From Acidobacteriota bacterium (GTDB taxonomy: Bacteria; Acidobacteriota; Thermoanaerobaculia; UBA5066), in NCBI GenBank assembly GCA_029781975.1, contig JAKOVQ010000003.1, positions 252,034-316,033 on the forward strand: DNA of 64,000 nt. Reading direction: 5' to 3'. The notes under the pieces were generated by a model. The model ran no database searches and had not been told where the DNA came from. It was given only the letters and a program-made list of their open reading frames with translations. Within the stretch, counting starts at the first letter, position 1. Every line of letters starts with the position of its first letter. Both the position numbers and the translations under genes were made by a program. Below are positions 1-9,233 of the stretch, piece by piece.

Positions 1-104
1 ACGAGCGCCACCTCCGCTCCCAGCGCCTTGCTCAGCTCGGCCGCCAGACCGGCGGCCCGGGGCTCGTAGTTTCAAACCACGCAGTAGGTGATCTCGACCT
101 TCAT
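1..104 (-). CDS. SelW/Rdx-family selenoprotein, N-terminal part (runs off left edge)
   Basis: Reading from the ATG at 104 the frame gives MKVEITYCVV, then TGA (74-72), then NYEPRAAGLAAELSKALG to the window edge. The bacterial Rdx family (SelW/SelT/SelH-like, thioredoxin-fold redox proteins of about 75-100 residues) starts this way with a CxxC or CxxU motif followed by NY.PRA. The TGA falls exactly on the second Cys/Sec position, so I read it as selenocysteine. A good Shine-Dalgarno site (TAGGAGG, 116-110) sits 5 nt before the ATG. A 7-bp hairpin directly after the TGA could be the SECIS element. About 35 codons are visible; the rest lies outside the window. The exact redox role of bacterial members is not established. 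Confidence 0.85.
39..57 (-). promoter_or_regulatory. Candidate bacterial SECIS hairpin
   Basis: On the minus strand, GGCCGCC (57-51) pairs perfectly with GGCGGCC (45-39) around the loop GGTCT. The loop begins 21 nt after the TGA codon and starts with GG. Both features agree with the loose bacterial SECIS rules: a stem-loop inside the coding sequence about 16-37 nt from the UGA to the apical loop, with G in the first two loop positions. The high local GC makes chance hairpins common, so the position is worth more than the stem itself. Confidence 0.6.
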
Positions 105-243
105 CGGGCCCTCCTACGCGATTCTACGGACGCCCCCCTTCGCGCGGACGGGACCGGCGCCGCAGGGCGCGCGCCCGCCGCCAGCAGGACGTGCCGGGCG
201 ACGTTCCGGCCCCGCGATCCGACCCGTGCTCCGGCGCGGCCGC

Positions 244-810
244 TCAGGTCTTCGGGAGCGTCACGCCCCGCTGCCCCTGATACTTGCCGCCGCGCTCGCG
301 GTACGAGACCTCGCAGGGGCCGTCCGCGCCGAGGAAGATCATCTGCGCCACCCCCTCGTTCGCGTAGACGCGGGCCGGAAGCGGCGTGGTGTTGGAGAAC
401 TCGAGCGTCACGTGCCCCTCCCACTCCGGCTCGAGCGGCGTGACGTTCACGATGATCCCGCAGCGGGCGTAGGTCGACTTGCCGAGGCAGACGACGAGGA
501 CGTCGCGCGGGATCCGGAAGTACTCGACGGTCCTGGCGAGCGCGAACGAGTTCGGCGGGATGATGCACTCGGGGCCGCTCACGTCCACGAAGCTCCGCGC
601 GTCGAACCTCTTCGGGTCGACGATCGTGCTGTTGATGTTCGTGAAGACCTTGAACTCCCCGGCGCACCTCACGTCGTAGCCGTAGCTCGACGTCCCGAAC
701 GACACGACGCCGTGCCCGTCGACGGTGCGGACGAGCCCCGGCTCGAACGGCTCGATCATCGCGTGCTCGAGCGCCCTCGACCGGATCCAGGTGTCGGGCT
801 TGACGCCCAT
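244..810 (-). CDS. dcd: dCTP deaminase
   Basis: 188 residues, the normal length for Dcd, which converts dCTP to dUTP plus ammonia for dTTP synthesis in the cytoplasm; some relatives also hydrolyse dUTP. The trimeric dUTPase-like core is clear: GKSTYARCG at 110-118, [18 protein letters not shown] around 125-142 with Glu137 (in TLEFSN) matching the catalytic Glu, and a C-terminal nucleotide-covering tail with GGKYQGQRG at 174-182. The ATG at 810 follows GGGAGGGG at a good distance. A TAGAAT hexamer (852-847) about 37 nt upstream may be its -10 box. I cannot tell mono- from bifunctional Dcd by eye. Confidence 0.93.
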
Positions 811-1585: not shown

Positions 1586-4255
1586 GTGCCGGCCACCCCC
1601 CCCATCCACGAGCCCCACAAGATCAAGACCGTCCGCCCCATCGCCTTCCCGACGCTGGAGGAGCGCAAGCGAAACCTCCAGAAGGCGCACTTCAACGTCT
1701 TCAACCTGACGCCGACGCAGGTCACGTTCGACATGTGCTCGTTCGGGACCGGCGCCATGAGCCAGGAGCAGATCGCCGGCCAGCTCGTCGGGGACGAGGC
1801 GTACGCCGGGGCGCGCAACTTCGAGACCCTCTGCGAGGTGGTGACGCGGGTCCTGGGGCACACGTACGTCTGCCCGACCCACAACAGCCTCGGGGCCGTG
1901 AAGCTGATCGTCGCGACGCTGACGCCGAAGGGCTCGCTCGTCCCGAGCAACGCGCGCGGGCGGGTCGACCTCCACGAGCCGCGGGGGATCGAGATCGCCG
2001 ACGTGCGCGACCGGACGGAAGAGGTCTTCACCGGGAACGTCGACCTCGCGAAGCTCCAGGCGCTCGTCTCGGGGCGGAAGGCCGCGATGATCGGCCTGCA
2101 GGCCTTCGCCGACGGCCAGCATCCCTTCAGCCTCGAGAACCTCCGGGGCGTGAGGGCCCTGGCGGACCGGCACGGTCTCCGGCTCCTCCTCGACGTCTCC
2201 CGCGTCGTCGAGAACGCCTGGTACGTCCAGCGGCACGAGGCGGGGCACGCCGACCGGACGATCGCCGAGCTCGTGAAGCTGATCGCCAAGACGGCGCACG
2301 TGGTCCTCCTCGACGGTGCCCAGGACGCCAAGTGCAACACCGGCGGCCTCCTCGCCACCGACAACCCGGCCGACCACGAGAGGTTCATGAACGAGGTGGT
2401 CGTCTACGAGGGGCTCCACACCTACGGCGGGATGGCCGGGCGGACGATGGAGGTCCTGGCCCGCGGCCTGGCCGAGATGACCGACGAGGCCGAGGTCCAG
2501 TGGGTGATGCACCAGACCGAGCGCTTCACCGCGCGCCTCGGGGACGCCGGCGTCCCGCTGGAGCGGGGCTGCGACGGCGCCTACCTGAAGGCCGACGCCT
2601 TCCTCCCGCACGTTTCGACCTACCCCGAGCACGCCCTCGCGGCCGCCCTCTACCAGACGAGCGGCGTGAGGGCCTTCGTCCCGGGCCACGCGGGGCGCGA
2701 CCACCTCCTCCCCGTCCAGATCCCGCGCCTGGCGATGACGAGCTGGCAGCTCGACCAGGTGGCGGACGCCGTCATCGCCCTCTTCGCGCAGCGAGAGAGG
2801 ATCGCCCCGCTCGACGTCGAGGTCGACGGCGCCTGGAACGACCAGCTCCGGTTCCGCTCCGTCTTCGCCGACCTCGCGACGTACGAGTTCGACTGCTACC
2901 CCTTCGTCGTCCACACGGTCGAGCCGATCGCCCGGACGACCCGCGGGCAGCGCGAGAAGGCGATCCGCGAGGCGGGATGGAACACCTTCCTCCTCCGGTC
3001 GGCCGACGTGACGATCGACCTCCTGACCGATTCCGGGACGACCGCCATGTCGACCGACCAGTGGGCGGCCTACGACGGCGCGCGCGCCACCGCGGCGACG
3101 AGCGAGGCCTACCACGCCTTCGTCGACTCGATGAAGGAGATCTACGGCTACGAGCACATTCTCCCGACCCACCAGGGCCGGGCCGCCGAGCAGATCCAGA
3201 GCGAGGTGATGATCCGCCCGGGCCAGCTCGTGCCGGGGAACATGTACTTCACGACGACGAAGGCCCACCAGGAGATGGCGGGCGGGATCTTCGTCGACGT
3301 CATCGTCGACGAGGCGCACGACCCGGCGAGCACCTTCCCCTGGAAGGGGAACGTCGACCTCGGCAAGCTCGACGCGATCGTGAAGGAGCACGGCGCCAAT
3401 CAGGTCGCCTACATCTCCTTCGAGTTCTCGGTGAACATGGCCGGCGGCCAGCCCGTGAGCATGGACAACGTCCGCGACGTCTACGCCTACTGCCGGCCGA
3501 AGGGGATCCCGGTCCTCTTCGACGCGACGCGCGCCGTCGAGAACGCCTACTTCATCAAGAAGCGCGACCCGCGCTACCGGGCGACCCCCATCCGCGACAT
3601 CGTCCGGGAGATGATGGCCCACGGCGACGGCTGCACCGTCTCGGGCAAGAAGGACTTCCTGATCAACATCGGCGGGCTCCTCGCGTTCAAGGACAACGCC
3701 GAGTGGGCGCGGAAAGCCGAGGAGAAGCTCCGGATCTACGAGGGGGGCGTCCGCGACGGCGGCCTCCCCGCGGCCGATCTCGCCGCGATGGCCCAGGGCG
3801 TGAAGGAGATGCTCGACGACCGCTACATCCGGACGCGGGTGGAGCAGGCCGCCTGGCTCGCCGACCGCCTGACGGCGGCCGGCGTCCCGGTCGTCGCGCC
3901 CACCGGGAGCCACGCGGTCTTCATCGACGTCAAGCGCTTCCTCCCGCACGTCGACCAGGACGAGTACCCCGCCCAGCGCCTGGCGGCGGAGATCTACGTC
4001 GAGACGGGGGTCCGCGTGATGGAGCGCGGCAACGTCTCCAAGGGGCGCGACCACGAGGGGAGGAACTACCGTCCGGCCCTCGAGCTCGTCCGCCTCACCA
4101 TCCCGCGCCGCGTCTACTCGAACGAGCACATGCGCGCCGTCGCCGACGGCATCGCGCGGCTCTACCAGCGGCGGCACGAGATCAAGGGCTTGAAGTTCGT
4201 CTACGAGCCGCCGGCGCTCCGCTTCTTCCAGGGGAGGTTCGAGCCGATCGGCTGA
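1586..4255 (+). CDS. Tandem-fused tyrosine phenol-lyase / tryptophanase family protein (pseudo-dimer)
   Basis: 889 residues, about twice the usual 455-470 of tyrosine phenol-lyase (TPL) and tryptophanase. These are PLP enzymes that split Tyr (or Trp) into phenol (indole), pyruvate and ammonia. Residues about 1-435 and 445-889 are each a full-length copy of the fold. The C-half resembles TPL rather than tryptophanase: NMYFTTT, MERG with Arg814 (TPL Arg381), LRFF near the end, SGKKD with Schiff-base Lys689, THQGR with Gln530/Arg532. The N-half has Gln246 in place of that Lys and lost QGR (NSL, 100-102), but keeps GDEAY (Tyr73) and YGG (Tyr280). The C-half has lost both of those tyrosines (Ala503, Asp724). 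The GTG start at 1586 follows AGAGGAGG. The 3' end overlaps the convergent cyclophilin gene by 55 bp. No frameshift or stop interrupts either half. Confidence 0.9.
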   Translation: MPATPPIHEPHKIKTVRPIAFPTLEERKRNLQKAHFNVFNLTPTQVTFDMCSFGTGAMSQEQIAGQLVGDEAYAGARNFETLCEVVTRVLGHTYVCPTHNSLGAVKLIVATLTPKGSLVPSNARGRVDLHEPRGIEIADVRDRTEEVFTGNVDLAKLQALVSGRKAAMIGLQAFADGQHPFSLENLRGVRALADRHGLRLLLDVSRVVENAWYVQRHEAGHADRTIAELVKLIAKTAHVVLLDGAQDAKCNTGGLLATDNPADHERFMNEVVVYEGLHTYGGMAGRTMEVLARGLAEMTDEAEVQWVMHQTERFTARLGDAGVPLERGCDGAYLKADAFLPHVSTYPEHALAAALYQTSGVRAFVPGHAGRDHLLPVQIPRLAMTSWQLDQVADAVIALFAQRERIAPLDVEVDGAWNDQLRFRSVFADLATYEFDCYPFVVHTVEPIARTTRGQREKAIREAGWNTFLLRSADVTIDLLTDSGTTAMSTDQWAAYDGARATAATSEAYHAFVDSMKEIYGYEHILPTHQGRAAEQIQSEVMIRPGQLVPGNMYFTTTKAHQEMAGGIFVDVIVDEAHDPASTFPWKGNVDLGKLDAIVKEHGANQVAYISFEFSVNMAGGQPVSMDNVRDVYAYCRPKGIPVLFDATRAVENAYFIKKRDPRYRATPIRDIVREMMAHGDGCTVSGKKDFLINIGGLLAFKDNAEWARKAEEKLRIYEGGVRDGGLPAADLAAMAQGVKEMLDDRYIRTRVEQAAWLADRLTAAGVPVVAPTGSHAVFIDVKRFLPHVDQDEYPAQRLAAEIYVETGVRVMERGNVSKGRDHEGRNYRPALELVRLTIPRRVYSNEHMRAVADGIARLYQRRHEIKGLKFVYEPPALRFFQGRFEPIG

Positions 4256-7077: not shown

Positions 7078-8147
7078 TCAGCAGATCCGCGGCAGCGGGT
7101 CGCCCGTCAGCATGTCGACGACGCGCATCCCGCCGATCCGGCTCCTGAGGAAGACCCTGCCGGGGTGGTCGGGGACGACCGTCCCGATCCGCGCCGCCTC
7201 GCGCCCCAGCGGGTGGGCGCGGAGCGCGGCGAGGGCGGCCTCGGCCGCGTGCGGGGCGACGAAGGCGACGAGCTTCCCCTCGTTGGCGACGTAGAGCGGG
7301 TCGAGCCCCAGGATCTCGCAGGCGCCGCGAACCGCGTCGCCGACCGGGATGGCGGCCTCGTCCAGCTCGACGCCGGCGCCGGCCTTCTGCGCCAGCTCGT
7401 TGAGGACGCTGGCGACGCCGCCGCGGGTCGGGTCGCGCAGGACGTGGACCGCCTCGCCGGCGGACGCGAGGAGGTCCGCGACCATCCCGTTGAGGGGGGC
7501 CGTGTCGCTCGCGAGGTCCGTCTCGAACCTCAGCCCCTCGCGGAGCGAGAGGATGGCGATGCCGTGGTCGGCGATCCGCCCGGAGAGGAGGATTGCGTCG
7601 CCGGGGCGCGCGCGCGACGGCGAGATGGCGATCCCCTCCGGGACGATCCCGATCCCGGTGACGTTGACGAAGACGCCGTCCCCCTTGCCGCGGTCGACGA
7701 CCTTCGTGTCCCCGGTGACGATCGAGGTGCCCGCCCTCTCGGCCGCCGCCTGCATCGACCGGACGATCCGCTCGAGCTCCTCCATCGGGAGCCCCTCCTC
7801 CAGGACGAGGCCGGCGGTCAGCGCCAGGGGCTGCGCGCCGCACATCGCGAGGTCGTTCACGGTCCCGTGGACGGCCAGGCTCCCGATGTCGCCGCCGGGG
7901 AAGAAGCGCGGGTGGATGACGTAGGAGTCCGTGGAGATCGCGAGGCGCCCGGCCGGGACGGTCAGGACGGCGCCGTCGTGGAGCTCGGCGAGGGCGGGGT
8001 TGTCGAAGGCGGGGAGGAAGAGCCGCTCGATCAGCCGCTGGCTCATCCTGCCGCCGCCGCCGTGCGCGAGGAGGACCGTGTCGGAGCCCGCGGAGGCCGG
8101 CACGGGGCAGGAGAGGGCGGCGAGCCGCTCGCCCAGGTCGTCGGCCA

Positions 8148-8148
<1 letters not shown>
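7078..8148 (-). CDS. hypE: [NiFe] hydrogenase maturation protein HypE
   Basis: 356 residues, a PurM/ThiL-like AIR-synthase fold protein. With HypF it makes the protein-bound thiocyanate that becomes the CN ligand of the NiFe(CN)2CO centre. Visible marks are LLAHGGGGRMSQRLI at the N-terminus, ISTDSYVI, GTVNDLAMCGAQPLALT, GDTKVVDRG, LRDPTRGGVASVLNE and the hallmark C-terminal PRIC, whose terminal Cys356 is carbamoylated. The start overlaps the hypD stop (TGATG), so translation is coupled. No hydrogenase structural gene or hypA, hypB or hypF lies in the window. Confidence 0.95.

Positions 8149-9233
<1,085 letters not shown>

Follow-up and report, generated by a model that had tools for sequence, protein, structure and literature searches.

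An in-frame TGA, almost certainly decoded as selenocysteine, in a bacterial SelW/Rdx gene of an acidobacterial genome

The window analysed here, a 64,000-nt stretch (G000:C27:252034-316033) from a 5.37-Mb assembly of 54 contigs and 96% completeness, opens at its left edge with the 5′ portion of a minus-strand selW/Rdx gene, comprising its first 34 codons, counted from the ATG, plus two bases of codon 35. From the ATG at 104-102, the codons spell MKVEITYCVV-TGA-NYEPRAAGL, and the TGA (74-72) occupies the second redox position, as claimed in an earlier sequence-only reading of this stretch, which had also proposed a Shine-Dalgarno site for the ATG; this site is the AGGAGG at 115-110, with a spacing of 5 nt. 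In the flanking contig, the open frame continues for 124 bases to the left of the window and reaches a TGA stop after 75 codons. This extension, suggested as a check on the gene, revealed an uninterrupted frame ending with a normal Rdx C-terminus, and neither an early stop nor a frameshift was encountered in it. The predicted 75-residue product, MKVEITYCVVUNYEPRAAGLAAELSKALGAEVALVKGSGGVFEVRAAGKLVFSKAATGRFPEPGEVTRLLGGPSA, carries its redox motif, C8-V-V-U11, near the N-terminus. Among the related loci examined, dcd and a downstream gene for a predicted secreted protein adjoin selW only in its own genome, and a conserved gene neighbourhood was rejected as a clue to function because these neighbours are not kept. 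The hydrogenase maturation genes hypD and hypE (window 7078-9233, minus strand) and hypB (L004:1195-1869, left of the window) lie on either side of selW, within ~12 kb of one another.

Table 1 Features of the selW locus (window positions unless a contig or locus is given)
Feature	Position	Strand	Length or basis
Whole selW gene	G000:C27:251910-252137 = L004:3911-4138	minus	75 aa
selW, 5′ part	1..104	minus	sequence read; Pfam Rdx and NF041051 matches
In-frame TGA at codon 11 (second CxxU redox residue, predicted selenocysteine)	72..74	minus	conserved in 89/90 loci
Shine-Dalgarno AGGAGG	110..115	minus	read directly, 5 nt before ATG
SECIS-like 7-bp hairpin (GGUCU loop, 50-46)	39..57	minus	comparative pairing, Cys controls, fdhF loop
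dCTP deaminase-like gene (dcd), upstream neighbour of selW	244..810	minus	not part of system

With the TGA read as Cys, profile searches matched the product to Pfam Rdx (PF10262) over residues 2-69, spanning the TGA, with an E value of 1.9e-20, and to the NCBIfam SelT/SelW/SelH family NF041051 with 96 bits against a cut-off of 88. By sequence, the closest matches among solved structures are Rdx proteins, for example 3dex, 2fa8 and 2p0g; Selenoprotein W (2npb) matches far more weakly. The original assignment to the SelW/Rdx-type selenoproteins is borne out by an Rdx domain at full length across the TGA and by conservation of the TGA in relatives, and the gene at the window edge is almost certainly a complete bacterial SelW/Rdx gene whose in-frame TGA is read as selenocysteine. 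With the bacterial SelW-like selenoproteins (PF10262; NF041051/TIGR02174) it shares length, an N-terminal CxxU, the Rdx domain, a TGA for Sec and a SECIS directly downstream; nothing notable differs, the host here being an uncultured acidobacterium. By contrast, CTQC-type Rdx proteins (the Cys form, e.g. PDB 3dex, SAV_2001, and 2ojl) have the same domain but carry Cys in place of Sec and an RWLLRAAW-like stretch after the motif rather than NYEPRAAG, and their acidobacterial examples lack the SECIS-like loop found in the window selW.

Among 119 related genomes, selW is present in 105, with a single TGA per match except in a few truncated or divergent matches. In 90 loci read from these 105 genomes, [YH]-C-x-x-TGA was found in 89, the exception (L116 in G007, a 77% complete genome) consisting of the downstream part only, in which no CxxU segment could be recognised. 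In a single scan of named genomes, 79 of the 80 best loci had a TGA and the remaining one a TGT; these loci come from Acidobacteriota, Gemmatimonadota, Desulfobacterota, Planctomycetota, KSB1 and other phyla. Of 297 Acidobacteriota genomes sampled, 94 gave a family match, mostly with TGA, and the six full-length stop-free matches all belong to the separate CTQC subfamily with a TGC codon. No full-length Cys version of selW was found among the 119 relatives, and selA is retained in most of those without a selW match (e.g. G002, G003, G008, G010, G014, G015, G017 and G018). Because selA persists without selW and a full-length Cys counterpart did not turn up, selW seems to have been lost rather than converted. 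We tentatively suggest, with somewhat less than even confidence, that SelW occurs in this acidobacterial class, as far as sampled, solely with Sec and disappears altogether instead of converting to Cys, in which case its role in these organisms may depend on selenium and be incompatible with Cys.

The organism had been predicted to possess selA, selB, selC and selD, and all four were located in its own genome. Profile searches placed selB on contig C24 (330 bits in all, cut-off 242), selA on C25 (E 3e-127) and a TGA-free selD on C2 (E 1.6e-118), while tRNA-Sec on C32 scored 65.9 bits against a gathering score of 47 and was called by ARAGORN as tRNA-SeC with the anticodon TCA. A second selD (G000:C15:537242-538171, L023:1501-2430, minus strand) contains an in-frame TGA in its active-site segment, SACAGUASK, as in a Sec-containing SelD, giving this genome two selD copies, one without the TGA on C2 and one with it on C15.

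Exactly 14 nt separate the selW TGA from a perfect 7-bp stem, GGCCGCC/GGCGGCC, with the loop GGTCT; the hairpin occupies nt 15-33 after the TGA and the GGUCU loop nt 22-26. This is the 7-bp GG-loop hairpin that had been noticed from the sequence, and its stem and loop were recovered at window 57-39. The spacing of 21 nt between UGA and apical loop falls inside the 16-37 nt range given for bacteria (PMC10778597), and the apical loop is small and contains a G. An Rfam search of the selW gene region returned no family match. The E. coli fdhF SECIS resembles the window element in placing a hairpin directly behind the UGA and in its GGUCU loop sequence (AGGTCT at nt 18-23 behind the TGA in NC_000913). 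Counted from the UGA, GGUCU begins at nt 22 in the window selW, one codon farther than in fdhF, where it begins at nt 19, and the window stem has no bulge, unlike the fdhF SECIS. In the fdhF loop, a G and the U that follows it are key contacts of SelB. A scan of the window also returned two other combinations of a TGA with an [N]GU-loop hairpin, which were rejected as low-complexity R/S-rich frames resembling shadow frames.

The hairpin might arise merely as a by-product of conserving the peptide RAAGLAAEL in GC-rich genomes, with the real SECIS elsewhere. In the window gene alone pairing is indeed favoured, because the peptide RAAGLAA sits in a GC-rich gene: the single-sequence fold is no more stable than shuffles (z = -0.08), and 7.7% of synonymous shuffles of the gene also reach 7 pairs. 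A comparison of 80 distinct sequences, however, gives a mean of 6.31 retained pairs out of 7, above every one of 2000 synonymous shuffles (4.88 ± 0.10, maximum 5.2), and the loop dinucleotide is GU in 86% compared with 9% in the shuffles; as this null pools codon usage over selW genes and ignores kinship, what counts as evidence is how large the excess is rather than any probability. At the loop site, 40 of 48 glycines are encoded by GGT, although these genes otherwise mostly use GGC for glycine; sequences with serine at this site use AGT, which retains the GU. In addition, two-sided changes from C-G to G-C were observed at pairs 18-30 and 21-27. Seven Cys homologues, which also bear the RAA motif, served as a control and showed 3-5 pairs and no GU at the loop position; the comparison with Cys homologues suggested at the outset thus found the hairpin pairs and loop GU kept in Sec genes, with fewer pairs and no loop GU in the Cys homologues. 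Taking these observations together, we consider the by-product explanation very unlikely; the putative SECIS hairpin is conserved beyond coding constraint across the 80 sequences, while being insignificant on the window gene alone. In a Myxococcales genome, a Cys copy and a Sec copy of SelW are adjacent (L197/L198, G383:C546:11315-11754), and in this tandem pair the Sec copy has 7 pairs and an AGTCT loop whereas the Cys copy has 4 pairs and AGCGT there.

The TGA itself could be a true stop, or a sequencing or assembly error for TGC or TGT in a Cys gene, leaving an ordinary CxxC Rdx protein or a pseudogene, given that it is one base away from either Cys codon and that the assembly is in 54 contigs. 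Yet the same TGA recurs in the relatives' loci and in the named loci from many phyla, the residues past it are conserved as Rdx, and the 119 relatives yielded no full-length Cys version. A misread Cys codon, one of the objections named at the outset, is excluded because independent genomes carry TGA at the same codon, and we give this explanation as a whole a negligible probability. Reading of the UGA as some other amino acid, through a reassigned code or tRNA suppression and without SelB and a SECIS, is compatible with the selW frame, which is open under any code with UGA as sense, but we regard it as exceedingly improbable: selW itself terminates at a TGA, and therefore UGA is not generally sense, the genome encodes tRNA-Sec with a TCA anticodon together with SelA, SelB and SelD, and Sec genes retain the hairpin loop whereas Cys genes do not.

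We are highly confident that selW encodes a bacterial SelW-like (Rdx, thioredoxin-like) selenoprotein, with the UGA at codon 11 predicted to be recoded as Sec via SelB and the hairpin. In this mechanism, SelA and selenophosphate supplied by SelD would make Sec-tRNA-Sec. SelB would bind this tRNA and also the hairpin, with its GGUCU loop at nt 22-26 after the UGA, and bring the tRNA to the ribosome at codon 11 instead of termination. The 75-residue product, with its C-x-x-U motif, then most likely acts as a small thiol/selenol oxidoreductase through a selenenylsulfide. Sec is most likely inserted at residue 11, judging from the gene, frame, family, conservation of TGA and hairpin, and machinery, and the product most likely has a redox role, to which its family and CxxU motif point.

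SelW-like CxxU selenoproteins are widespread in bacteria and their Cys homologues are few (PMC1794560, PMC2398784, PMC1088965), with very few or none in Sec-containing organisms (PMC1794560). They form the most abundant selenoprotein family in the Sargasso Sea set (PMC1088965) and also in the Global Ocean Sampling set, with 427 Sec and 56 Cys forms (PMC2398784). The window selW is a sound but ordinary new example within this long-described bacterial family, pointing to selenoprotein production in the acidobacterial lineage and adding no new principle. Ordinary gene callers would cut it at codon 11 or miss it, comparable to Epsilonproteobacteria, in whose annotation SelW genes were overlooked (PMC4607533).

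Several selW-like frames outside the main set differ in motif or hairpin. A divergent Rdx-like protein (L210:256-501 in G012, and L211 in G305; MRVTIRRCGYUISGMHAARVAASL...) has C-[GA]-Y-U-ISG in place of CxxU-NYEP and likewise a TGA; a GCCGCC-CGGGT-GGCGGC hairpin stands where selW has its own, and the protein possibly represents a second SelW-like selenoprotein subfamily. Two other loci, L207 (G227; CVTUINLLLGAVRL) and L209 (G355; CFFURDIRARAGRL), hold weak Rdx-like frames in which a TGA supplies the U of C..U, and a GGUCU-type hairpin is absent at the corresponding position. In Pseudohongiella and other Gammaproteobacteria (L175, L180, L184 and L187), selW has the TGA and a differing hairpin sequence (AGCAGACCGTGTGTCTAAT), in which the loop is CGTGT and the stem is shorter, as in a diverged SECIS. 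Elsewhere in the window, an 889-aa frame at 1586-4255 contains two stretches matching beta-eliminating lyase of the tryptophanase/tyrosine phenol-lyase type, apparently a tandem duplication within one protein.
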